Below are positions 37,513-49,296 of a stretch of 64,000 nt of DNA, piece after piece; position 1 is the stretch's first letter; every line of letters starts with the position of its first letter. The notes under the pieces are model-generated. The model did no database searches. It had not been told where the DNA came from and saw only the letters and a program-made list of their open reading frames with translations. Location of the stretch: contig DPJG01000006.1 in the NCBI GenBank assembly GCA_003543135.1, forward strand, positions 208,374 to 272,373, written 5' to 3'. Made by a program: the position numbers and the translations under genes. This DNA comes from Rheinheimera sp. (GTDB lineage: Bacteria > Pseudomonadota > Gammaproteobacteria > Enterobacterales > Alteromonadaceae).

Positions 37513-38412
37513 TTACTCTACCTGCCTTAACCTGGCAGCTTCGGCATAATCTTTGGCGGCGCGCCATTCCAAAGTGCTTTTAAGCAGCAGCGTCAACAGT
37601 GCCAATAACGCCAGCAAGGACGACACGGCAAAAGCGGCGGCAAACTGGTATTCGTTATAAAGAATTTCGATATGCAGTGGCATGGTGTTGGTTTGTTCGC
37701 GGATCTTGCCCGACACCACAGAAACAGCACCAAACTCGCCCATAGCGCGGGCGTTACATAAAATAATGCCGTACAACAGCGCCCATTTAATCGAAGGTAA
37801 AGTCACCCGCCAAAAGGTTTGCCAGCCGTTGGCGCCTAAGGTCAGCGCTGCTTCTTCCTGCTCGCGGCCCTGCTCCTGCATCAAAGGGATCAGTTCACGG
37901 GCGACATAAGGAAAGGTGATAAAAATTGTCACCAGCACTATGCCTGGCACGGCAAACATCACACCTAAGTCGTGCTCGTTCAGCCATTCCCCCCACCAAC
38001 CGCGGGCGCCAAAAATCAGCATAAAACTTAAACCGGCAATCACAGGCGACACCGCAATAGGCAAGTCGATTAAAGTGATTAATAACTGCTTGCCGCTAAA
38101 ACGGAATTTGGCAATGGCCCAGCTGGCCGCCAGACCAAAAATCACATTACAGGGCACTGCTATCAGCGCTGCTATTAGGGTAAGTTTTATCGCATGAGCA
38201 GCGGCAGGTTCGGTAATAGCAGCCAGATACACACCCCAGCCTTTGGCAAAAGCTTCACCAAACACAATCACCAGCGGCAATAACAAAAACAAGGTTAAAA
38301 ACCCAAGCGCCAGCGCCGTTAATAACCATCTTAACCACAAAGGTTCGGCCGTGGCTTTACGTAGTTGCGCTGCGGGCACAGTGTTTAAGCTGTTTAATTC
38401 AATCACACTCAT
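37513..38412 (-). CDS. cysW: Sulfate ABC transporter permease CysW
   Basis: Inner-membrane permease of the sulfate/thiosulfate importer: 299 aa with six helices and the ABC contact loop [20 protein letters not shown] (about 200-219). CysW-type traits are the longer N-terminal region and the [14 protein letters not shown] segment. Its ATG overlaps the cysT stop (ATGA). It is the last gene of sbp-cysT-cysW and is followed by a strong terminator. The ATPase is missing from this operon; cysA at 20.1 kb is the likely partner. Confidence 0.93.
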
Positions 38413-39251
38413 TTTGCCCCACCCTGTCTTTGGTTGCTCCAGTGCTGCAATGCATTAATCAGCAGCAATAACAAAAATGAAATCAGCAGCATCACAGTGC
38501 CAAGCGCGGCGGCGCCGGCGTAATCGTATTGCTCCAGCCGCGACATAATCAGCAGAGGCGTAATTTCAGTGCGAAACGGCATATTGCCACTGATAAACAC
38601 CACAGAGCCGTATTCGCCGATAGCGCGGGCAAATGCCAGGGCAAAACCTGTCAGTAAAGACGGAATAAGCGCCGGAAATATCACTCGGCAAAAAGTTTGT
38701 AAGCGGTTGGCCCCTAAGCTGGCCGCTGCTTCTTCCAGCTCTTTATCAATGTCTTCCAGCACCGGCTGCACTGTGCGCACCACAAAAGGCAAACCAATAA
38801 AAATAAGCGCCAGCGTCACGCCAAAAGCGCTGTAAGCCACCTTAATACCAAGTGCATGAAAATATTGGCCAATCCAGCCGTTGGGTGCATAAAGTGCGGT
38901 TAAGGCAATACCGGCCACTGCCGTTGGCAAGGCAAAAGGTAAATCCACCAGCGCGTCCACCACTTTTTTACCAGGAAAGCTATAACGCACCAGCACCCAG
39001 GCCACCAGCAAACCAAAGACCAAGTTCACCAGCGCTGCCACCAAAGAAGCGCCAAAAGTCAGCTGGTAACTGGCAATGGCCCGCTCTGTGGTTACCACTT
39101 GCCAGAAATCAGCCAGGCTTAACTCAAAACTTTTTAACAGCAACGCCGACAGTGGAATAAACACAATCAAACTTAAATAAAAGGTGGTAAAGCCCATCGA
39201 CAGGCCAAAACCGGGTAACACCGATTTTTTACGTTTGGAAAAAAAGCCCAA
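38409..39251 (-). CDS. cysT: Sulfate ABC transporter permease CysT (CysU)
   Basis: Partner permease of CysW: 280 aa with six helices. The N-terminus [19 protein letters not shown] and the contact loop [20 protein letters not shown] fit CysT, as does [17 protein letters not shown]. The only start before the conserved KKSVLPGF sequence is a TTG at 39251, with GAGGTG four bases upstream, so a rare TTG start is likely. It lies between sbp (123 bp upstream) and cysW (4-bp overlap). Confidence 0.92.
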
Positions 39252-39374
39252 GGCTCACCTCATACAAAATGTAACTGTTGTTGGTTATGGATAGCGCCCG
39301 GCCGCTGTGCCGGGCTTGATTTTGTGTGTTTTTGCTGCCAGCTGCCGCCTTCACAAGCGCGAACAACAACCGCC

Positions 39375-40370
39375 TTAACGGTAAATGCTGTCAAAAATGC
39401 CGCCTTCAGCAAAATGCGTTTGCTGCAGTTTGGCCCAGCCGCCCAAATCGTCAGCACTGACTAACTTCATTGCCGGAAACTTATTGGCAAATTCAGCGGC
39501 AACCTTGCTATCGACCGGCCGGTAATAATGTTGCGCCACAATACGTTGTGCTTCCGGGCTGTATAAATATTCCAGATAAGCCTGGGCTAAAGCTAAATTG
39601 CCTTTTTTCTGTGCACGTTTGTCCACCACAGCCACTGAAGGCTGCGCCAGCACCGACACCGAAGGCACTACAATTTCTACCTGATCGGCCCCTAACTCGT
39701 TGACGGCTAAAAAGGCTTCGTTTTCCCAGGTCAGCAGCACGTCGCCTATGCCACGCTGCACAAAAGTAGTGGTAGAACCGCGCGCGCCCGAGTCCAGCAC
39801 CGGCACATTACGGTAAATTTTGCTGACAAAAGCTTTGGCTTCTTCGTCACTCTGGCCCTGAGCCTTGGCATAAGCCCAGGCGCCGAGATAATTCCAGCGG
39901 GCACCACCCGAAGTTTTTGGATTGGGGGTGATCACATCCAAACCGTCACGGGTTAAATCGTGCCAATCGGTAATTTCCTTGGGATTGCCTTTACGCACCA
40001 AAAACACAATGGTCGAAGTGTAAGGTGCACTTTGGTGTGGCAGGCGGTTTTTCCAGTCGGCAGGCAATAAACCGGCTACTTTGGCCAGGGGGTCAATGTC
40101 CACTTCCAGCGCCAGCGTCACCACGTCGGCACGCAGGCCATCCAGCACGGAACGGGCCTGACTGCCGGAGCCGCCATGCGACTGCTCAACTTTAACGGTG
40201 CCGCCGGTTTTGGTCTGCCAGTAGGCAGCAAAAGCTTTGTTGTAGTCGCGATATAGTTCGCGGGTGGGGTCGTACGACACATTCAGCAGCGTTTGTTCTT
40301 TGGCAACTAACGGCAGTGCTGTACTGAATGCCGCCAGCAGCAAAGCAACCCACAATGACTTTCTTTTCAT
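39375..40370 (-). CDS. sbp: Periplasmic sulfate-binding protein
   Basis: A 331-aa exported binding protein delivering sulfate (or thiosulfate) to CysT/CysW. The signal peptide is about 1-24 ([17 protein letters not shown]). The mature start [20 protein letters not shown] is diagnostic of the Sbp/CysP family, as are [14 protein letters not shown] and [16 protein letters not shown]. The ATG at 40370 has AGGA seven bases upstream; a GTG codon directly before it is not needed. Whether it is Sbp or CysP cannot be settled by eye. Confidence 0.93.
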
Positions 40371-40420
40371 CACTTTATCCTGTGCAGCCTGGTTGCCGCG
40401 CCAAATCTCAAAACTGGATA

Positions 40421-40534: not shown

Positions 40535-41707
40535 TTACACAGCGCCAAAACGAGCCTGAATGCCAGGCAGACTGCCATCTGAATACAACCAGCGTCCTTG
40601 TGCCATCACGGCTTTTATCGTCAGCGTAGTTTTATCCAGCAGCACTAAATCGGCATCTGCCCCCACTGCAATCTTGCCTTTTTTCGGCAGTTTTAAAATG
40701 CGCGCCGGGTTTTGTGTCACCACCTGCAACGCAATTTCAGTGGGCACGCCCAGCCTGATAGCGTCTGCCACTTCTTCATACAAGGACGCAATACGCCCTT
40801 CACCCAGGCCAATAAAGTTATTGTTGCTGTCAAATTCCGGTAACGAAGCGTTGGCGTCGGAGGAAAAACTAATGTTGTTAATATTCACCCCTTGTTGCCA
40901 GGCCTGCAGCAAGGCGTCGGCGCATTTAATTTCGCCCTGGGCTAAATCCTGCGCTGTGGTGCTGGTGGTAAAGTCGATATAGCCGCCGGCTGCCACATAA
41001 GTAAAACCCATCTGCAGCAAATGCTGGTTGCGGTTGATATGGGTGGGATAAAACTGAGTCAGCGGAATATCGCTGCTTTGCGCAACCTCGTGCAATAAAC
41101 TGAGGCCGGCAGCGGCAGAACCCACATGCACACTGACAATACCGGCTTTACCCGCCAGCATACCGCCGACTCTGGCTTGTGATGCCAGTTTTTTCAGCTC
41201 ATCGGCAGTGGGTTGGGACGAACGGTGGTCAGCAATCGCCACCTCCCCCACGCCAATAAACTTATCAATCAGCACCAGGTCTTCCATCACGTCGGCCATT
41301 AAAGTGCGGGCCGGAATTTGATAAGAGCCGGTGTAACAATAACAAGTCACGCCAAGCTCGTTAAAAGCGCTGGCCTTGGCCAATAAGTTGGTTAAGGTAC
41401 GGGTGACAGCGTCTGTGCCCAGCACCCCCACCAAAGTGGTGACGCCGGCGCGTGCGGCATCGGCAAACTGCATCTCTGAAGTACGGGTGGTAAAACCACC
41501 TTCGCCACCGCCACCAATAATATGCGCCAGTGAATCAACAAAACCAGGTACCAGCAAACAGCCGCTGGCTTCCAGCTCAAAAACTTCAGCGCCCTGAATA
41601 TCCAGCTGCTGAGCCAAACCAGCAATCCTATTGCCGGCAACCAACAGTTGCTGCACTCCCAAAGCGGCCGGACTGTAAACTTCTGCCTGGCTTATCCGCG
41701 TAATCAT
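40535..41707 (-). CDS. iadA: Isoaspartyl dipeptidase-like amidohydrolase (IadA family)
   Basis: Splits beta-aspartyl dipeptides; in cyanophycin breakdown the substrate would be beta-Asp-Arg. The 390 aa match the length of the E. coli enzyme. Family landmarks are IIGGGGEGGFTTRT, HVGSAAAGL (metal His), FYPTHINRN (metal His) and FSSDANAS (metal/catalytic Asp). Oddities: the usual zinc HxH pair after VPGFVD reads SLAH, so the first His (position 60) is Leu, and the position of the bridging lysine reads GVGEVAIADHR with Glu. The Glu form may be a subfamily trait; the Leu is unexpected. The ATG at 41707 has AAGGAA seven bases upstream. It is the last gene of the receptor-peptidase-carrier-dipeptidase run. 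Confidence 0.88.
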   Translation of the reverse strand: MITRISQAEVYSPAALGVQQLLVAGNRIAGLAQQLDIQGAEVFELEASGCLLVPGFVDSLAHIIGGGGEGGFTTRTSEMQFADAARAGVTTLVGVLGTDAVTRTLTNLLAKASAFNELGVTCYCYTGSYQIPARTLMADVMEDLVLIDKFIGVGEVAIADHRSSQPTADELKKLASQARVGGMLAGKAGIVSVHVGSAAAGLSLLHEVAQSSDIPLTQFYPTHINRNQHLLQMGFTYVAAGGYIDFTTSTTAQDLAQGEIKCADALLQAWQQGVNINNISFSSDANASLPEFDSNNNFIGLGEGRIASLYEEVADAIRLGVPTEIALQVVTQNPARILKLPKKGKIAVGADADLVLLDKTTLTIKAVMAQGRWLYSDGSLPGIQARFGAV

Positions 41708-41775
41708 GCTTGTATTCCTTTTGCTGGGTAAAGGCCGGTGCAGCACCGGCGACTAGGCTGTTCCGGTCGCGGCTG

Positions 41776-43266
41776 TTAAAAACCAAGCAAGACCGCCACT
41801 GCCACAGTGCTGATGCTCATCAGCGTTAACAACAACCACAAAGGCCACATGGCTTTGAGCCATTTACTAAAATCAACCCCGGCAATCGCCAGCGTGCCCA
41901 TCAGCGCCGGTGACGTGGGATAAAACAAATGCGCCAGACCATCACCCAGCTGAAAAGCCAATACCGCCACCTGCCGGCTGACGCCAACCAAATCGGATAA
42001 AGGCGCCATCAGCGGCATGGTTAAGGCTGCCTGGCCTGAGCCGGACGTAACAAAAAAATTAAAACCACTCTGAAACACCAGCATGCCCTGTGCTGCCACC
42101 ATGGCGCCGTGCCCGCTAATCGTCTCTGCCGCATGGTGCAATAAGGTATTGATAATGGTGGGTTCGCTGGCACTGGTGCCGCCCAGCAGCAAAATAATGC
42201 CCTGTGCTATGCCCACCACCATAGCGGCCGGTAACAGTTGTGCCGCCCCTTGTTTAAAGGCGTCGACATAGTCGTTAACGCTGGCGCCATTTAACCGGGC
42301 TATCCGCCCGACAGAACCCGCCAGCAAGGCCATTACAAAAAACTGCGTGGCAATTTCGCGCAGGTAATAACCCTGCATTACCACGCCCCACACCATCCAG
42401 GCCATGCCACCGAACAAAATCAGCACGACCAGCAAGTGGGCAAAACAAAACTGATGTTCAATGTTAAAACTGGCCTTGTGGCCGCCGTCCGGCTGCGACT
42501 GACGCAAACGCTCTGCCCGCCACATAAACCAGCCGGTGTAAATCAGCGTAAAAACCAGCCACATCAGCATACGAAAGCCTGAGCCCGATAAAGGCGCCAG
42601 CCCGGCAATACTCTGGGCTATCGCTACTGAAAATGGATTCATCCAGGAAGTCGCAAAACCAATCTGGGTGGCGCCATAAGTCAGTAGCACTGCGGTAATG
42701 GCGTCGTAACCCAAGATCCGCACCAGCGGCAATAAAATCAGCGCAAAGGCCATGGCCTCTTCACCCATGCCAAACACAGCGCCGCCGAGCGAAAACAAAA
42801 ATGCCAACAGCGGCAACAACAAGCGGGCCTTATGTTGCAGGCTGTTGATCAGCATTTTTAACGCTTCATCAATGGCACCGGTTCGCAACAACACACCAAA
42901 ACTACCGCCCACCAGCAGAATAAATACCACCACACCAATGGCGGAACCCTGACGCGAGCCTGAAGTCATGCCATCAAAAAAAGCGGTCAGTAGGCCAGTG
43001 TTATCGCCATCGGCAAACAAGGCGGCAGGCTGAGCCTCGCCATTGTTAGCTTGTTGATAACTACCAGCGACCAGCAATTGCCGGCCGGTTTCCACATCCA
43101 GGCGGGTTTCAAACTGACCACGAGGCATAAAAAGGGTAAGCAGCGCACAGACCAGCAACACGCCAAACACAATCAGCAGGGTGTCGGGCATTTGCCAGCC
43201 TTTGGCCGGCACTGTTGCCGCCTGCTCTGACAGGGCAGGCGTTGTTGGTTTTACATCTTGATTCAT
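41776..43266 (-). CDS. YfcC-type (ArcD-like) basic amino acid/peptide transporter
   Basis: A 496-aa inner-membrane carrier with about 12 helices, of the YfcC/C4-dicarboxylate-ArcD superfamily. Landmarks are LFMPRGQFE near the first helix, VGGSFGVLLRTGAIDEAL, GMGEEAMAFALILLPL, GYDAITAVLLTYGATQIGF and GLAHLFYPTSPALMG. Relatives carry arginine/ornithine, dicarboxylates or dipeptides. Next to a cyanophycinase-like gene and iadA, the likely cargo is beta-Asp-Arg or related dipeptides; that is inference. Its ATG overlaps the stop of the S51 gene (TGATG), so translation is coupled. Confidence 0.87.
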   Translation of the reverse strand: MNQDVKPTTPALSEQAATVPAKGWQMPDTLLIVFGVLLVCALLTLFMPRGQFETRLDVETGRQLLVAGSYQQANNGEAQPAALFADGDNTGLLTAFFDGMTSGSRQGSAIGVVVFILLVGGSFGVLLRTGAIDEALKMLINSLQHKARLLLPLLAFLFSLGGAVFGMGEEAMAFALILLPLVRILGYDAITAVLLTYGATQIGFATSWMNPFSVAIAQSIAGLAPLSGSGFRMLMWLVFTLIYTGWFMWRAERLRQSQPDGGHKASFNIEHQFCFAHLLVVLILFGGMAWMVWGVVMQGYYLREIATQFFVMALLAGSVGRIARLNGASVNDYVDAFKQGAAQLLPAAMVVGIAQGIILLLGGTSASEPTIINTLLHHAAETISGHGAMVAAQGMLVFQSGFNFFVTSGSGQAALTMPLMAPLSDLVGVSRQVAVLAFQLGDGLAHLFYPTSPALMGTLAIAGVDFSKWLKAMWPLWLLLTLMSISTVAVAVLLGF

Positions 43267-45065
43267 CAAAGCTTGACCTCAGCTTGCATCGGCAAATTGA
43301 TATAGTGCCACTGACCATCACTGCGCTGGCAGGCCGCATGCTGCAACGAAGGGCTGTGCCAGACTAAGCCGGGCAAAGCCTGATATGCCGCCTGATCAAT
43401 CAGCCGGCTGTCGGTTGGCCTGGCCTCACAGCCAAGCAGGCCCTGCCATTGTCCCTGACGGAAATGCAATACATCGCCCGCCAGAATCCTGCTGATCTGC
43501 AGGCCGCTGGCACGCCAGTCGTTTTTGTCCGCCAGGCTTTGCCGTTGCGCCTTGCTGGCATCCAGCACCCAGGCACCACCAACACCCAGCACCTGCAGCC
43601 TGGCGGTCAGGCCCGCTACCGCAGCACCACCATTGCCGGCTGTTTTTGGCTGGCCGGGCGCCTGTTCCGGCTGCTGGCTGTTCGGTTGCTCAGGGGCAAA
43701 ATTGACACGTAACACTGCACCTTCATCCACGCCCACACCATAAGCAGTGCCGGTATCCAGCAATAACCTTAATAAGCGTCCTTCGCGGTTACGCTGGCGA
43801 AAATGGGTGTCAGTCACGCCGAGGGAAAAAGTTTGCAGGCCGCCATCTGCTTTATACGTCAGCTGGCCCTCGACGGCCTGGCTGCTGCAACGCTGATGGA
43901 GTGCACACAAAGGCGAATTGGGGCTATCGGCCAGCGCCGGTAGTTGCAGCGCCACACTGCTGCGCCCGCCGCTGATCATGGGTATTGCCGTATCAGGCCG
44001 TCCCGATTGCACCGCAGTGCCGGCACTGGAACCCGCCAGCGGAATACCGGCTGCAACCTGCTTTAATAACAGTTGCGCCAGCGCGGTAAAACTGCCATCC
44101 GGCCGCTGCAGGCTGTGCATAGTCAGGGTCTGATCACCACCGTTGATAAAAATGGCATCCGCCTGTTGCACCGCCGCCAGCATGGCGGCTGGTTCTGCAC
44201 AAAGCCGCTGCTGATAGGCCGCCAGCTCCGGATAACGTTGGCTGCGGTTGTACTGACCGTTATAAATAAAACGCCGCTCATTTAAGTCAGAGCAATCGCC
44301 GCCCTGCGCCAGTGCAGGTTCCAGCGGTAGCCAGCCGGCATCAGCACCTGCTGCGGTAAACAGCTGCAGGTAATAATCCACCCATTGAAAGGGATCATTG
44401 GAAGATGCAGTGATCAACAAAAGCTTGGGCCTTGCCACAGGCTCGCCCCGCGCTTTGGCTCTGTCGGAAGCTGACTGCAAAAAAGCGCGGAACATCTGCT
44501 GCACATAAGGTTCGGTATCACGAAACGACAGCTGCATCATGGCGGTGCGGCCATCCTGGCGGGTCAGGCGAAGCTCAAACAAGTCATCCAGTAAATTCTG
44601 CTCGTCATCACTCAGCGCCAAAGGTGCGAGCGCTGTTAACCAGTCTTGTTCTTTCAGTGGCTTGCCGGCAAAACGCGCCATGTTGGCTTGCAGCCATTGC
44701 ACCACTTGTTGCTGCCGCTCTTTGCTACCTGGCCAGCCGGGTAAGGTGGCAAGTTGGGCGTTGCTAAAAACAAACTCTTTTTCGCGAAATGCTTCGCGGG
44801 AGGCAAAATAAGCTTCAGCCGCCTGCCGCCGCGCCGGCACACATAAATGTGGCTCGACGCTGGAACACAAAGGTTCACCACCGCCGAATAACCATAATTC
44901 TTTGCCCTGCAACTTAGGATCATCAGGCAAAATCTGCTGTGCTGCCTGCTTGTCAGCAAGTTGCTCTTTCATAATCTGCATTGCTGCCGCCTGAACTGTT
45001 GGCAATACTGTCGGCAACAACAGGCCCGCCAGCATGGCAAGGCGGATATTCAATCGCTGTTTCAT
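43266..45065 (-). CDS. Secreted cyanophycinase-like S51 peptidase
   Basis: A 599-aa exported serine peptidase of the S51 family (cyanophycinase/peptidase E). The signal peptide is about 1-26 (AMLAGLLLPTVLPTVQA). The core spans about 205-450: LLLITASSNDPFQWVDYY, IFINGGDQTLTMHSL, the nucleophile Ser347 in AGSSAGTAV, and the characteristic TDTHFRQRNREGRL with His421. The chain is twice the length of intracellular cyanophycinase, with a large N-terminal region (about 27-205) and a Gln/Pro-rich linker before a C-terminal domain. This fits an extracellular or periplasmic form that cuts cyanophycin to beta-Asp-Arg. Polymer specificity is inferred from the family and neighbours. Confidence 0.85.
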   Translation of the reverse strand: MKQRLNIRLAMLAGLLLPTVLPTVQAAAMQIMKEQLADKQAAQQILPDDPKLQGKELWLFGGGEPLCSSVEPHLCVPARRQAAEAYFASREAFREKEFVFSNAQLATLPGWPGSKERQQQVVQWLQANMARFAGKPLKEQDWLTALAPLALSDDEQNLLDDLFELRLTRQDGRTAMMQLSFRDTEPYVQQMFRAFLQSASDRAKARGEPVARPKLLLITASSNDPFQWVDYYLQLFTAAGADAGWLPLEPALAQGGDCSDLNERRFIYNGQYNRSQRYPELAAYQQRLCAEPAAMLAAVQQADAIFINGGDQTLTMHSLQRPDGSFTALAQLLLKQVAAGIPLAGSSAGTAVQSGRPDTAIPMISGGRSSVALQLPALADSPNSPLCALHQRCSSQAVEGQLTYKADGGLQTFSLGVTDTHFRQRNREGRLLRLLLDTGTAYGVGVDEGAVLRVNFAPEQPNSQQPEQAPGQPKTAGNGGAAVAGLTARLQVLGVGGAWVLDASKAQRQSLADKNDWRASGLQISRILAGDVLHFRQGQWQGLLGCEARPTDSRLIDQAAYQALPGLVWHSPSLQHAACQRSDGQWHYINLPMQAEVKL

Positions 45066-45116
45066 GAAAAATCCCGGGGCAAGGGCTGCCGGCCATGCCG
45101 GCAGCCTGTCATCACA

Positions 45117-48092
45117 TCAGAAGGAATAACGTATGGTCAGGCGTACCGACCTTGGCGTCTGGTAGTTCACGTCGTTAAGGAAATCCGGGTTTTGCCCTTC
45201 ATCTTCCAGCGACAAGTCGCCCTTTTCGTCATATTCAGTAACCCGCTGGGTGTTCAACAGATTAAACACGTTCAGCTGCACCACCAGATCTTTTACCGCT
45301 TCCGGCCGGTAACTGACACCGGCATCCAGCATAAAAGTCCATGGCGTGCGGCCAAACTGGCCACGCTGGGTTAACTCTTGCTGCCCATCGGCATTGCGAC
45401 AATACAAAGTAGAAGGTGCATAACGCTCAAACACAGCGTATTCATCTTCATCCACTGAAAATGGCGGGTAGCCAAAACAGCTGACCGGACGGCCGGATTG
45501 CACCATCAGATTCGCATTCAGCTCCACTTCGCTGGTCAGCTGATAACCGCCATACAATTTAAAGGTGTGGCGTCTGTCGTTGGATAAATCACCGTCAGTG
45601 CCATCGACAAAAACTTTGTGGTCAAAGTCGTTGGTAAGGCCAGGCGTGGCATCTTCCAGCCAGCTGTTTACCAAACCTTCGCTGTTGCCTTTGCTTTTGG
45701 CCAGCACATAACTGCCCTGCAGGAACCAGTTATCCTGCTGCGCCCGCTCCCAGAAAAACTCCAGCGCCTGATAAGTGCGTTTGTATTTATCCAGTTGCAG
45801 ATAACTGTTTGGCACTGTAACCCGTTGCAGTACACCATCGCCCGCCACGTCCATATCCATTTCCAGGTCACGGCCCGGGTTTAAGATAATGCAGCTGGCC
45901 AGGGTATCAGGGTCAAAATCGCTGTAACCCTGATCTTCGGCAAAGTCGATAAACGCCTGACGCCCACAATAATCGTCCACACCGTTTTTCACTTTACGGG
46001 CAATAAAACGCACACCGCCTGTCCAGTTGTCCGCCAGCTCACGCTGATAACCGATGATCAGCTCATCCTGCAGCATAGGTTCAAGATTGGCTGAAGCCAC
46101 AGTGGCGGGATCCGGCGAAGTATTACGACCGCTCACCAAAGTATCACCGAGCTTGGCGCCCAGCTGATTTGGTGCCTGGGTTCTGGCATCAACAGTACCG
46201 TCATACAGATAATATTCGGTGGTCACCGCCTGCCAGTTGGAGGCGCGGATATTGGTATTGGCGGCAATTGGAATAAAATAGCGGCCGGCATTGGCAAATA
46301 CCTTGGCACTGCTGTCGCCATTCACATCCCAGGAAAAACCCAGTCTGGGCGCCAGCATATTTTCTGCATCAACAAAAGACACCCCATCACTGTTCAGATT
46401 GTCAAAAGACTCGTTCCGCAATCCTGCGTACAGCAGCAGGTTGTCGCTGACCTGCATACTGTCTTCGAGGTAAATGGCCGAGTTTTTCACTTCATAACTG
46501 CCGGACGGCGTTTCGCGGGTGCGCTTACGCACCACATGAGCACCAGGCGCTACATCCACGCCATTCCAGCGGTCCGGGCTATCCAACGGGGTATAACGGC
46601 GGAAAAACACACCACCGGAATAACTGGTGCCTGCCCGGCTGGAGGTAAAAGTTTCGCTGTCGACGCCAAAACGTAAAGTATGTTCTGCCAGCACCCACTC
46701 GGCATCCAGCCGCAGCGCTTCGCGCTCGTCAGTGTCGGGGCCAAAATTCAGCGTGCGGATATTAATTTCATTCCAGCAACCCACGTCAATCACATCGTCG
46801 GTGCTTTGATCATACACATCCACCAGCGGACATTCGTTGCCGGGTAATGGGTCCGGCGTGGTGTAAGCAGCATCACTGTTCAGTGCGCCATACATCAGAC
46901 CCAGGGTGAAATTCTCCGCCAGATGGCCGGTATATTTACCAATCAGAATGTCACCGCCATTGCGCTCTGTGTATGCAGTGCGCAGACTGCCATGCTGGCC
47001 GGTGTAATATTTGTCATCCGGATTCATAAAAATCTGGTAGTCGGTTTTTTCCACGTTATAAATACCGGTCAGTTCCAGAATATGATTGTCGGTCAGGTAC
47101 CAGTCGATTTTTGCCAGCGCATTGGGCGAATCGTTTTCACTGCGGCTGCTGCGGTCAACCGTATAAACATCACTGCTGTCTTTTTTGCCTTCCAGTAAGG
47201 TAAAAATAAACAGCTTGTCTTCAATCAGCGGACCACCGCCCGACAAGGTATAAGACAGCTCATCACTTTCGTCGTCGGAGCGATATGCCGAATAATATTC
47301 ACGGGAGCCTGGCTCAGCCTGCACCCGGCTAACCACGTTTTTGCCGTGGGCAGTTAATGCTGACGGCGTCCAGACGCTGGAGACATTAAATTTCCAGTCG
47401 TTGCTGCCCCTTTTGGTCACAATGTTAATGACACCACCCAAGGCGCGGCCATATTCAGCGCCAAAACCGCCGGTTTTGACCTGCTGCTCACCGATACCAT
47501 CAAAAGGAACCCGGCCATAAGATAAAAAAGTGCGGGCATTGGTGACATCAAAACCATTGATGTAATAGCCATTTTCCGCCACCGAGGCACCGCCAAAAGA
47601 GGCCAGCTTGCCAAAGCTGGAATCACCACGCACTGTGCCCGGTGCCAGCATGGCCACGTCACTGATATCACGGCCCACCGGCAATCTTTCCAGTTGTGCT
47701 GCGCTAAATACGGTGCTCGACTCCACCGAAGAAGTATCAATCGGGTTAATGCTGCTACCCACCACACTCAGCCGCTCTATCGCCTCGGCCGAAAAATTAA
47801 CCGGTGTACCTGTGCCTACACTGACCTGTACTTCGCGGTTCACACCACCGGCACTGACCTGATAACGGCCGCTTGGCAACTGGGAAAAATTAAAACGGCC
47901 GCTGGCGTCGGCTTTGAGTTCACGCTTAAGGCCGGTATCAAGATTTTTCACACTGACCACAGTACCTTGTTGGGTCTGACCAAAAATAGAACCGACCGAC
48001 AAATCGGCATAAGCCGAGCTCTGGCCGAGGGCCAAAGCCACCAGCGCCGCAACAGCGGACTTTTGTAACTGAGTGAACTTGTGAGTTTTCAT
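45117..48092 (-). CDS. TonB-dependent outer-membrane receptor with carboxypeptidase-like N-terminal domain
   Basis: A 991-aa outer-membrane receptor of the Oar-like type. The signal peptide is about 1-29 (AAVALVALALGQSSAYA). A carboxypeptidase-regulatory-like domain (about 30-100) precedes the plug (about 110-230, with VAENGYYINGFDVTNA and GAEYGRALGGVINIVTKRG) and a 22-strand-type barrel ending in the outer-membrane signature RLTIRYSF. It would bind and import an oligomer too large for porins; the neighbours suggest cyanophycin fragments. GGAG lies six bases before the ATG. It leads the four-gene run to iadA and follows the LuxR-type gene across a 301-bp control region. Confidence 0.94.
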   Translation of the reverse strand: MKTHKFTQLQKSAVAALVALALGQSSAYADLSVGSIFGQTQQGTVVSVKNLDTGLKRELKADASGRFNFSQLPSGRYQVSAGGVNREVQVSVGTGTPVNFSAEAIERLSVVGSSINPIDTSSVESSTVFSAAQLERLPVGRDISDVAMLAPGTVRGDSSFGKLASFGGASVAENGYYINGFDVTNARTFLSYGRVPFDGIGEQQVKTGGFGAEYGRALGGVINIVTKRGSNDWKFNVSSVWTPSALTAHGKNVVSRVQAEPGSREYYSAYRSDDESDELSYTLSGGGPLIEDKLFIFTLLEGKKDSSDVYTVDRSSRSENDSPNALAKIDWYLTDNHILELTGIYNVEKTDYQIFMNPDDKYYTGQHGSLRTAYTERNGGDILIGKYTGHLAENFTLGLMYGALNSDAAYTTPDPLPGNECPLVDVYDQSTDDVIDVGCWNEINIRTLNFGPDTDEREALRLDAEWVLAEHTLRFGVDSETFTSSRAGTSYSGGVFFRRYTPLDSPDRWNGVDVAPGAHVVRKRTRETPSGSYEVKNSAIYLEDSMQVSDNLLLYAGLRNESFDNLNSDGVSFVDAENMLAPRLGFSWDVNGDSSAKVFANAGRYFIPIAANTNIRASNWQAVTTEYYLYDGTVDARTQAPNQLGAKLGDTLVSGRNTSPDPATVASANLEPMLQDELIIGYQRELADNWTGGVRFIARKVKNGVDDYCGRQAFIDFAEDQGYSDFDPDTLASCIILNPGRDLEMDMDVAGDGVLQRVTVPNSYLQLDKYKRTYQALEFFWERAQQDNWFLQGSYVLAKSKGNSEGLVNSWLEDATPGLTNDFDHKVFVDGTDGDLSNDRRHTFKLYGGYQLTSEVELNANLMVQSGRPVSCFGYPPFSVDEDEYAVFERYAPSTLYCRNADGQQELTQRGQFGRTPWTFMLDAGVSYRPEAVKDLVVQLNVFNLLNTQRVTEYDEKGDLSLEDEGQNPDFLNDVNYQTPRSVRLTIRYSF

Positions 48093-48393
48093 GTGATGCT
48101 CCAGCGGTGCCCTGACAGTACTTTGCCGTCATTGTTATCAGCAGATTTGCCTGTTCCTTATCCTGTGGTGAGACGCATCGGGGTTCAGCACAAAAAACCA
48201 CCAGCTGCATATCACCATTTGATAATACAAGCTTGATTCAAGGGCTTATATATCCAGTTAGGAATAACAGCGGCGCTGTTAACTTGCTGAAAAAACCAAC
48301 CACTATCCCTTTGGCGATAGAAAATCTGGCAGGCGGCTCAATGGTTGCGCCGGGCAAAAACCGCCAGAGCGCCCAACTGCAGCAGCGCCAGGC
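48093..48393 (-). other. Control region between the LuxR-type gene and the receptor gene
   Basis: No gene. Contains the 17-bp dyad (48265-48281), a second short palindrome CTTGATTCAAG (48232-48242), and a TATTAT -10 candidate (48227-48222, minus). No T-run follows the dyad on the minus strand, so it does not look like the LuxR-gene terminator. About 100 bp of leader precede the receptor ATG. Confidence 0.55.
48265..48281 (-). promoter_or_regulatory. 17-bp perfect dyad, candidate operator of the receptor operon
   Basis: TAACAGCG-G-CGCTGTTA is a perfect inverted repeat. Its centre lies about 58 bp before the start point expected from the TATTAT element at 48227-48222, where LuxR-type activators commonly bind. 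The adjacent LuxR-type gene is the obvious candidate regulator. Confidence 0.5.
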
Positions 48394-49296
48394 TTAGAGG
48401 CTGGTTTTCATACGGGGCGATTGGGCTTGCTGATATAACGCCAGCGGATCTGTTTGCTCGTCTGGGCGGGCAAAAGGAATGCAATTGATAAACAACGAAA
48501 AAAGTTCGGCCTGCGAACCTATCTCCAGCTTGCGGTAAATATTTTTGCGGTGAATTTTAACTGTGCCATCTGAGGTGTTGAGTTTTTCCGCCGTCAGCGC
48601 CGACGAATACCCCCTGAGCAGGTACAACAACACATCCCGCTCCCTTTTGGTCAGCAGTGAGCTGGCAAAATTGCTTAAGGTGCATTCCACCTGTAGGTGG
48701 GTATTGTCGTCGCTGTGTCGCTGTGGCAAATGTGCCGCCAGCTGGTAATGCCGGCTTAAGGCTGCCGACAATAACGGCAATATCAGCCGCAGCGCCATTA
48801 AATCAGCCGCAGTAAAATCATTGCTGTGAATATTGCGCTGCATAAAAAACACCAGGGCGGTGTCATCATCAATACGCCACAGCACGTCAATAGAATCGGC
48901 CACACCGGTTTTGGAATAAAAACTCTGATAATAGGGGCTGGAATAAAAGTCATCAGGCGCAATGTCACGCAGCCAATAAGCGCCGCTGTCGCAGCCCTGC
49001 AAAAACAGCCGGTATTGGGGGTCCAGCGCATAAGGGCCGGTGGAATAAATATCAGCATCCACCTGACGGGCCACCGGATGAAACCTGTGCAATAAACTCA
49101 AAGGTTTTTGCTGACGATAAAACACCAAAGCGCCGCAGGAATCCGTGGGGCAGACAAAATCCAGCACATCCAGTACTGCTGCAATCAGTCCGGCTTTGCC
49201 TACGTCCTGCTGCACCCGCGCCAGTGCAGCTACTAATGCTGGCTCCAGTAAAATGCCAAGATGCCCCTGATAATGTTTGGTAATTTGCGGATCCAT
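48394..49296 (-). CDS. LuxR-family transcriptional regulator
   Basis: A 300-aa regulator. A unique N-terminal ligand or protein-interaction region (about 1-210) is followed by a C-terminal LuxR helix-turn-helix (about 220-280): LLTKRERDVLLYLLRGYSS, LNTSDGTVKIHRKNIYRKL, ending in ELFSLFINCI. No REC or autoinducer domain is evident; the type is often linked to catabolic genes. It stands just upstream of the receptor-peptidase-transporter-dipeptidase genes on the same strand and probably controls them. Confidence 0.88.
   Translation of the reverse strand: MDPQITKHYQGHLGILLEPALVAALARVQQDVGKAGLIAAVLDVLDFVCPTDSCGALVFYRQQKPLSLLHRFHPVARQVDADIYSTGPYALDPQYRLFLQGCDSGAYWLRDIAPDDFYSSPYYQSFYSKTGVADSIDVLWRIDDDTALVFFMQRNIHSNDFTAADLMALRLILPLLSAALSRHYQLAAHLPQRHSDDNTHLQVECTLSNFASSLLTKRERDVLLYLLRGYSSALTAEKLNTSDGTVKIHRKNIYRKLEIGSQAELFSLFINCIPFARPDEQTDPLALYQQAQSPRMKTSL

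Follow-up and report, generated by a model that had tools for sequence, protein, structure and literature searches.

A probable cyanophycin-scavenging operon in Rheinheimera, its relatives in Gammaproteobacteria, and an isoaspartyl dipeptidase lineage with leucine at a zinc-ligand position

Five genes on one strand of a Rheinheimera genome most likely form an operon for scavenging cyanophycin, to which we would assign a probability of about 0.7. Cyanophycin is a cyanobacterial store of nitrogen and carbon that is released at cell death. An exported S51 peptidase would cut its poly-Asp backbone outside the cytoplasm to give beta-Asp-Arg dipeptides or short pieces, a TonB-dependent receptor would provide energized uptake of these products through the outer membrane, a YfcC-type carrier would move the beta-Asp-Arg dipeptide through the inner membrane, and a cytoplasmic isoaspartyl dipeptidase (IadA) would split it into Asp and Arg. 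A LuxR-type protein probably activates the operon from sites upstream of the receptor gene. This is the route proposed in an earlier note on this DNA, and the interpretation is mostly sound, although less new than claimed: active-site residues, protein fold, gene order across genera and a replacement pattern within the genus all support it, while cyanophycin as the substrate, and as the inducer, is what we infer from them. The unexpected part of the finding is the IadA, which belongs to a lineage with leucine in place of a textbook zinc-ligand histidine.

The window, by which we mean the whole 64,000-nucleotide stretch of DNA that was analyzed, lies on contig C2 of a 3.99 Mb draft genome that is 99.8% complete. 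ORF calls and family searches agree with the earlier note on five genes, their order, their common strand and their positions, from the regulator to IadA:

48394..49296, minus strand: LuxR/GerE-type regulator, putative local activator (ORF call, GerE family match)
45117..48092, minus strand: TonB-dependent receptor, putative outer-membrane importer (PF25183, PF00593 and PF13620)
43266..45065, minus strand: S51 peptidase of a cyanophycinase-like subfamily of about 600 residues (PF03575, residues, fold)
41776..43266, minus strand: YfcC/DcuC-family inner-membrane carrier, putative beta-Asp-Arg carrier, with its ATG at 43266 and the ORF open from 43269 (PF03606, NF008611)
40535..41707, minus strand: isoaspartyl dipeptidase IadA, in which Leu replaces the first zinc-ligand His, the ORF open from 41746 (TIGR01975)

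The carrier scores 583 bits against NF008611 (cut-off 500) and IadA 457 bits against TIGR01975 (cut-off 331), which places both in their families. The likely start codon of IadA is the ATG at 41707, 68 bp past the end of the YfcC gene. The tight spacing described earlier holds for the TGATG stop/start overlap between the S51 and YfcC genes and for the gaps of 51 bp (receptor to S51) and 68 bp (YfcC to IadA); it does not hold for the 301 bp between the LuxR-type gene and the receptor gene, a gap that contains a conserved upstream region.

How well does the S51 protein match known cyanophycinases? It has 599 residues and, by eye, a signal-peptide-like start, which would place it outside the cytoplasm. 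The accessible sections of PMC3235067 give Ser132, Gln101, Asp172, Gln173, Arg178, Arg180 and Arg183 as the important sites of CphB, and Ser171, His224 and Glu251 as those of CphE, in which Thr replaces Gln173. The window's enzyme matches CphB/CphE at all nine of the catalytic and pocket sites: the triad is S347, H421 and E448, and the pocket consists of Q312, D419, T420 (Thr, as in CphE), R425, R427 and R430, within a D-x-H-F-x-x-R-x-R-x-G-R motif. Ser347 in GSSAG and His421 in TDTHF are thus where the earlier note had put them. All nine residues are kept in 31 of the 33 a/b-type S51 proteins from the relatives search (the window's own included), the two exceptions, L061 and L062, having lost residues of the triad, and these 33 are our basis for residue conservation; the triad is also invariant in a 43-row alignment whose rows were selected by pattern, and conservation among our 80 named loci is not independent evidence, because GGDQ and DTHF..R.R were among the patterns used to find those loci. 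The predicted structure has a mean pLDDT of 89, and its first nine Foldseek matches are chains of 3en0, 7uqw and 7uqv, all named as cyanophycinases (E 2.6e-12 to 7.1e-11; TM-score by target 0.72-0.78), followed by a cyanophycinase-like exopeptidase at E 2.5e-7 and by PepE-type structures from E 9.6e-6. In its predicted fold the protein matches the cyanophycinases. Three of the nine chains belong to 7uqv, titled 'pseudo-CphB', which retains the same motifs in alignment with S51, so that sharing these residues may be insufficient to establish the substrate; a paper on this structure was not found in our literature search.

The NCBI rule does not give the protein the name cyanophycinase. It scores 66 bits against the equivalog TIGR02069 (cut-off 126.6), and five other members of its subfamily score 77-110 bits, also below the cut-off, while two shorter CphE-like proteins of the c type (L063 and L064) pass with 181 and 182.5 bits. 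The subfamily has an insertion of about 125-130 residues close to the N-terminus, and its C-terminal part is rich in beta structure. Judged by its residues and its modeled fold, then, S51 resembles a cyanophycinase, yet it is a member of a separate, divergent subfamily of about 600 residues. The sections of PMC3235067 available describe the CphE of Pseudomonas alcaligenes as an exported S51 enzyme with the same Ser/His/Glu triad and Gln/Asp/Arg pocket and with Thr preceding the catalytic His, encoded by a 1260-bp gene and 43.6 kDa when mature, unlike the 599-residue window enzyme with its insertion.

Comparison of gene order in relatives had been set beforehand as a check, on the ground that genes never kept together elsewhere would speak against the operon. 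The opposite was found. A scan of genome contigs gave 249 S51 relatives, and the best 80, all with gammaproteobacterial names, were kept; within 6 kb of S51 these 80 have IadA in 72 cases, YfcC in 69, a plug-type receptor in 58 and the window's receptor type in 9. Where 6 kb could be seen on both sides (63 loci from the best 80 of 249), receptor, YfcC and IadA all lie near S51 in 52. Two layouts predominate, and between them they use two receptor types with the same S51-YfcC-IadA set. The one-strand order LuxR-receptor-S51-YfcC-IadA occurs in Rheinheimera and Alishewanella, and a divergent layout, in which receptor-YfcC-IadA faces S51, is commoner and spans many genera. The culturable R. texasensis carries both (L081 and L084). 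Since this gene company recurs in so many genomes, it is more than chance. It is not rigid: three window-type loci of the genus (L031, L032 and L033) have no YfcC mapped directly between S51 and IadA, although the genome search finds one there in L033, and G005, G012 and G019 have S51, YfcC and IadA with no receptor within 6 kb, which indicates that the set can do without a receptor gene nearby. S51, YfcC and IadA diverge in step: in 50 of the 80 named loci their pairwise identities correlate (r 0.85-0.88), in part as a result of shared descent. The named-loci and genome sets overlap, and their counts are not summed, except for a set of 104 distinct IadA proteins drawn from both.

The Rheinheimera genome itself has no cyanophycin synthetase over the cut-off (best 87.6 bits, cut-off 850), and because of this scavenging is the reading that fits best. 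If S51 is counted as cyanophycinase-like, the window holds what defines a cyanophycin utilization locus, a cyanophycinase, an isoaspartyl dipeptidase and a transporter clustered without cphA1. Both IadA genes and both YfcC genes over their cut-offs in this genome sit in its two S51 cassettes. The second cassette (L042:6090-11044, on contig C34) is a divergent S51-YfcC-IadA set that has no linked receptor and adjoins an ArcB-like hybrid kinase gene.

Within the genus, the S51 types are distributed as if they replaced one another. Among 22 genomes, with classes assigned by identity and frame length, 12 have the window-type S51, 9 the second-locus type and 8 a CphE-like type; no genome is without all three, and every one has at least one S51, YfcC and IadA. 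The 13 genomes without a second-locus S51 all have a window-type or CphE-like one. The window-type receptor occurs in the same 12 genomes as the window-type S51, in 11 of them at 74-100% identity; the twelfth has a fragment of 28 residues at a contig edge, 86% identical. The remaining 10 genomes reach at most 50% in a full-length match to it. Eight of ten second-locus regions contain no S51, and these retain YfcC and IadA in 8/8 cases and a plug-type receptor in 4/8; each of their genomes has another S51 type. Eight CphE-like S51 loci (L063-L070; seven in the genus, one in another genus) have no YfcC, IadA or receptor alongside. This pattern suggests that interchangeable S51 enzymes feed one uptake route, and it is what speaks most against regarding the genes strictly as one operon. 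The CphE-like ORFs are 422-448 aa long, and those of the genus (L064-L070) face a gene that Pfam assigns to GH3 in the locus tested, L064.

Could the operon instead import isoaspartyl peptides generally, from aged proteins or detritus, or serve some other beta-Asp-linked polymer, the specificity of S51 having shifted? We consider this unlikely while giving it real weight. IadA enzymes take many beta-aspartyl dipeptides, according to the portion of PMC10206079 available, the metal site of the IadA lineage has changed, and an Asparaginase_2 (IaaA-like) gene lies elsewhere in the genome; the divergence of the S51 subfamily, with its N-terminal insertion and beta-rich C-terminal part, and the pseudo-CphB structure with the same motifs also speak for this reading. 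Against it stand the critical cyanophycinase pocket residues, which are kept in 31 of 33 a/b-type proteins, and the complementary distribution of the S51 types and the CphE-like ones across the genus.

It is considerably less probable that S51 is a PepE-like peptidase acting on ordinary Asp peptides in a cluster for general peptide use. PepE belongs to the same peptidase family, and PepE structures do appear in the Foldseek results at E about 1e-5 to 1e-3, but cyanophycinase structures rank far above them, S51 scores 66 bits against TIGR02069 and 20 bits against the PepE model, and the D-x-H-F-x-x-R-x-R-x-G-R motif speaks against PepE. That the neighbors of S51 reflect chance or a lineage-inherited arrangement without joint function is very improbable. 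Many of the loci are indeed related by descent, and four of 26 well-flanked relatives have a lone S51 gene (L051, L058, L061 and L062), whereas two layouts with two receptor families carry the same set, the divergent one in many genera, and two of the four lone genes, L061 and L062, lack catalytic residues (L051 and L058 keep them). The proteins of L061:7957-9633 and L062:7576-9360, which have no YfcC, IadA or receptor alongside, are possibly non-catalytic. Cyanophycin scavenging thus remains our preferred reading of the operon.

What distinguishes the IadA of this operon? The accessible text of PMC10206079 gives H68, H70, H201, H230 and carboxylated K162 for EcIadA, with E77, T106 and R233 as further metal or substrate residues, and that of PMC5517026 describes a type I IadA with two zinc ions and Glu166. 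Five IadA sequences in the PDB, from three enzymes, read DPHVH, DAHAH or DSHAH at the first motif. The window's IadA reads DSLAH, with Leu (residue 73 of the 403-aa ORF) at the first zinc-ligand His, and so, by sequence, does not have the binuclear HxH motif. It keeps the second His, the Glu bridge, two further His, Arg, Thr and Asp in alignments with the PDB sequences read by eye. Set beside the type I enzymes CpsIadA and LmIadA, as far as the available parts of PMC5517026 and PMC10206079 describe them, it shares the Glu that bridges the metals, agrees at the remaining His and Asp positions, and differs in having Leu for the first His of the HxH motif. We predict that the Leu form functions with a single zinc or has a weakened alpha site.

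The leucine follows the gene company. A search for IadA in 60 relatives, made without reference to S51, gave 49 places over the cut-off, of which 42 have the Leu form and 7 the His form; YfcC or S51 lies within 6 kb of 40/42 Leu forms and 0/7 His forms, and four of the seven His forms adjoin cyanophycin synthetase, these 49 places being related by descent and their counts not independent events. The two Leu forms that have neither YfcC nor S51 within 6 kb are in L211 and L219. The 104 distinct IadA proteins (by their last 300 residues) comprise 96 Leu and 8 His forms. In a tree of 54 rows chosen from the 104, the 46 Leu forms lie on one side of a branch with support 94/93, just below the tool's own starred level, and two long His rows meet. 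All 46 Leu rows have Leu73, Ser262, Glu272 and Ala300 (numbered on the 403-aa ORF), and none of the eight His rows has any of these; positions 262, 272 and 300 would sit at the barrel's active-site end. The exception is in Natronospira (L149:10737-11954, outside the 49-place set), where a His-form IadA directly follows S51 in a locus with receptor and YfcC; it groups with the His forms in the tree and looks like an independent recruitment. A His-to-Leu lineage of IadA was not found in a full-text literature search, which reached few subscription papers.

A wider interpretation is possible, and we offer it tentatively: TonB-coupled cyanophycin uptake may occur across many Gammaproteobacteria, and in its service an IadA lineage may have abandoned an alpha-zinc ligand and remodeled its active site to suit imported beta-Asp-Arg. 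The canonical His form would stay with cyanophycin storage operons. If true, such loci would be a peptide-polymer counterpart of polysaccharide utilization loci, and a widely conserved TonB-coupled route would tell who eats cyanophycin and how. IadA offers an approachable test case, in that one branch has apparently given up a ligand of the textbook two-zinc site, and the loss coincides with a shift of genomic company from storage to scavenging.

The receptor and YfcC would carry the cleavage products of cyanophycin. The receptor, which we take to be Oar-like, has an N-terminal carboxypeptidase-regulatory-like domain. Its AlphaFold model (7 rows) has a pLDDT of 44.5, too poor to use, and its comparison with PDB sequences gave no meaningful match. 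Against the need for such a receptor, beta-Asp-Arg should be small enough to pass through porins. At six loci inspected by eye, other Oar-type receptors of the genus have no obvious peptidase partner.

Cyanophycin utilization loci are already known as a general kind. The strain L21-Spi-D4 locus of Ben Hania et al., as cited in the accessible part of PMC10206079, has the same cyanophycinase, iadA and transporter for scavenging external polymer; compared with the locus as cited there, the window adds the LuxR regulator, the TonB receptor, YfcC, the S51 of about 600 residues and the His-to-Leu IadA. In Citromicrobium sp. JLT1363 a TonB receptor was predicted to act on cyanophycin from its position beside a cyanophycinase gene, the same adjacency as in the window, and the passages of PMC3400609 available describe that pair without YfcC, IadA or a regulator. 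The claim that a link of TonB receptor and carrier to this pathway is not well described is therefore in part wrong, since a utilization locus (PMC10206079) and a receptor beside cyanophycinase (PMC3400609) are in print, at least in the parts available; the five-gene layout was not found in our full-text search, with most subscription papers outside its reach. The earlier note mentions neither the replaced histidine of IadA nor the second cassette of the genome nor the putative operator. As far as that full-text search shows, what is new is the layout, the YfcC carrier, the S51 subfamily and its breadth, and the IadA lineage.

The LuxR-type regulator is 68-80% identical to eight counterparts at the same place in related loci, and it may bind two putative operator sites in the gap before the receptor gene, in blocks that were chosen by eye from an alignment of ten upstream regions:

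48303..48320, minus strand: putative operator site 1, CTATCGCCAAAGGGATAG (self-complementary at 12 of 18 positions here and at 8 to 16 of 18 in relatives)
48250..48267, minus strand: putative operator site 2, TTATTCCTAACTGGATAT (8 of 18 positions self-complementary; 53 bp from site 1)

The site 2 block is present in all ten regions, and site 1 is readable in nine and weak in L076, L077 and L080. In the window, site 2 is followed by a -10-like TATTAT. A simple promoter scan gave 5 matches against 6.7 in shuffles, none of them at the putative operator, and a scan of divergent-layout loci for operator-like sites gave scattered weak matches. Two conserved sites before the receptor gene were not found in the full-text literature search, largely made without subscription papers. 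Site 1 is the sole place in the genome within one mismatch of CTATNNCNNAARGGATAG, and the reversed control gave 0 matches.

Directly downstream of the operon, on the same strand (37513-40373), lie a sulfate ABC transporter substrate-binding gene, assigned by family search, and two genes that look permease-like by eye; L031 and L032 likewise have homologs of the two permease-like genes after the operon.
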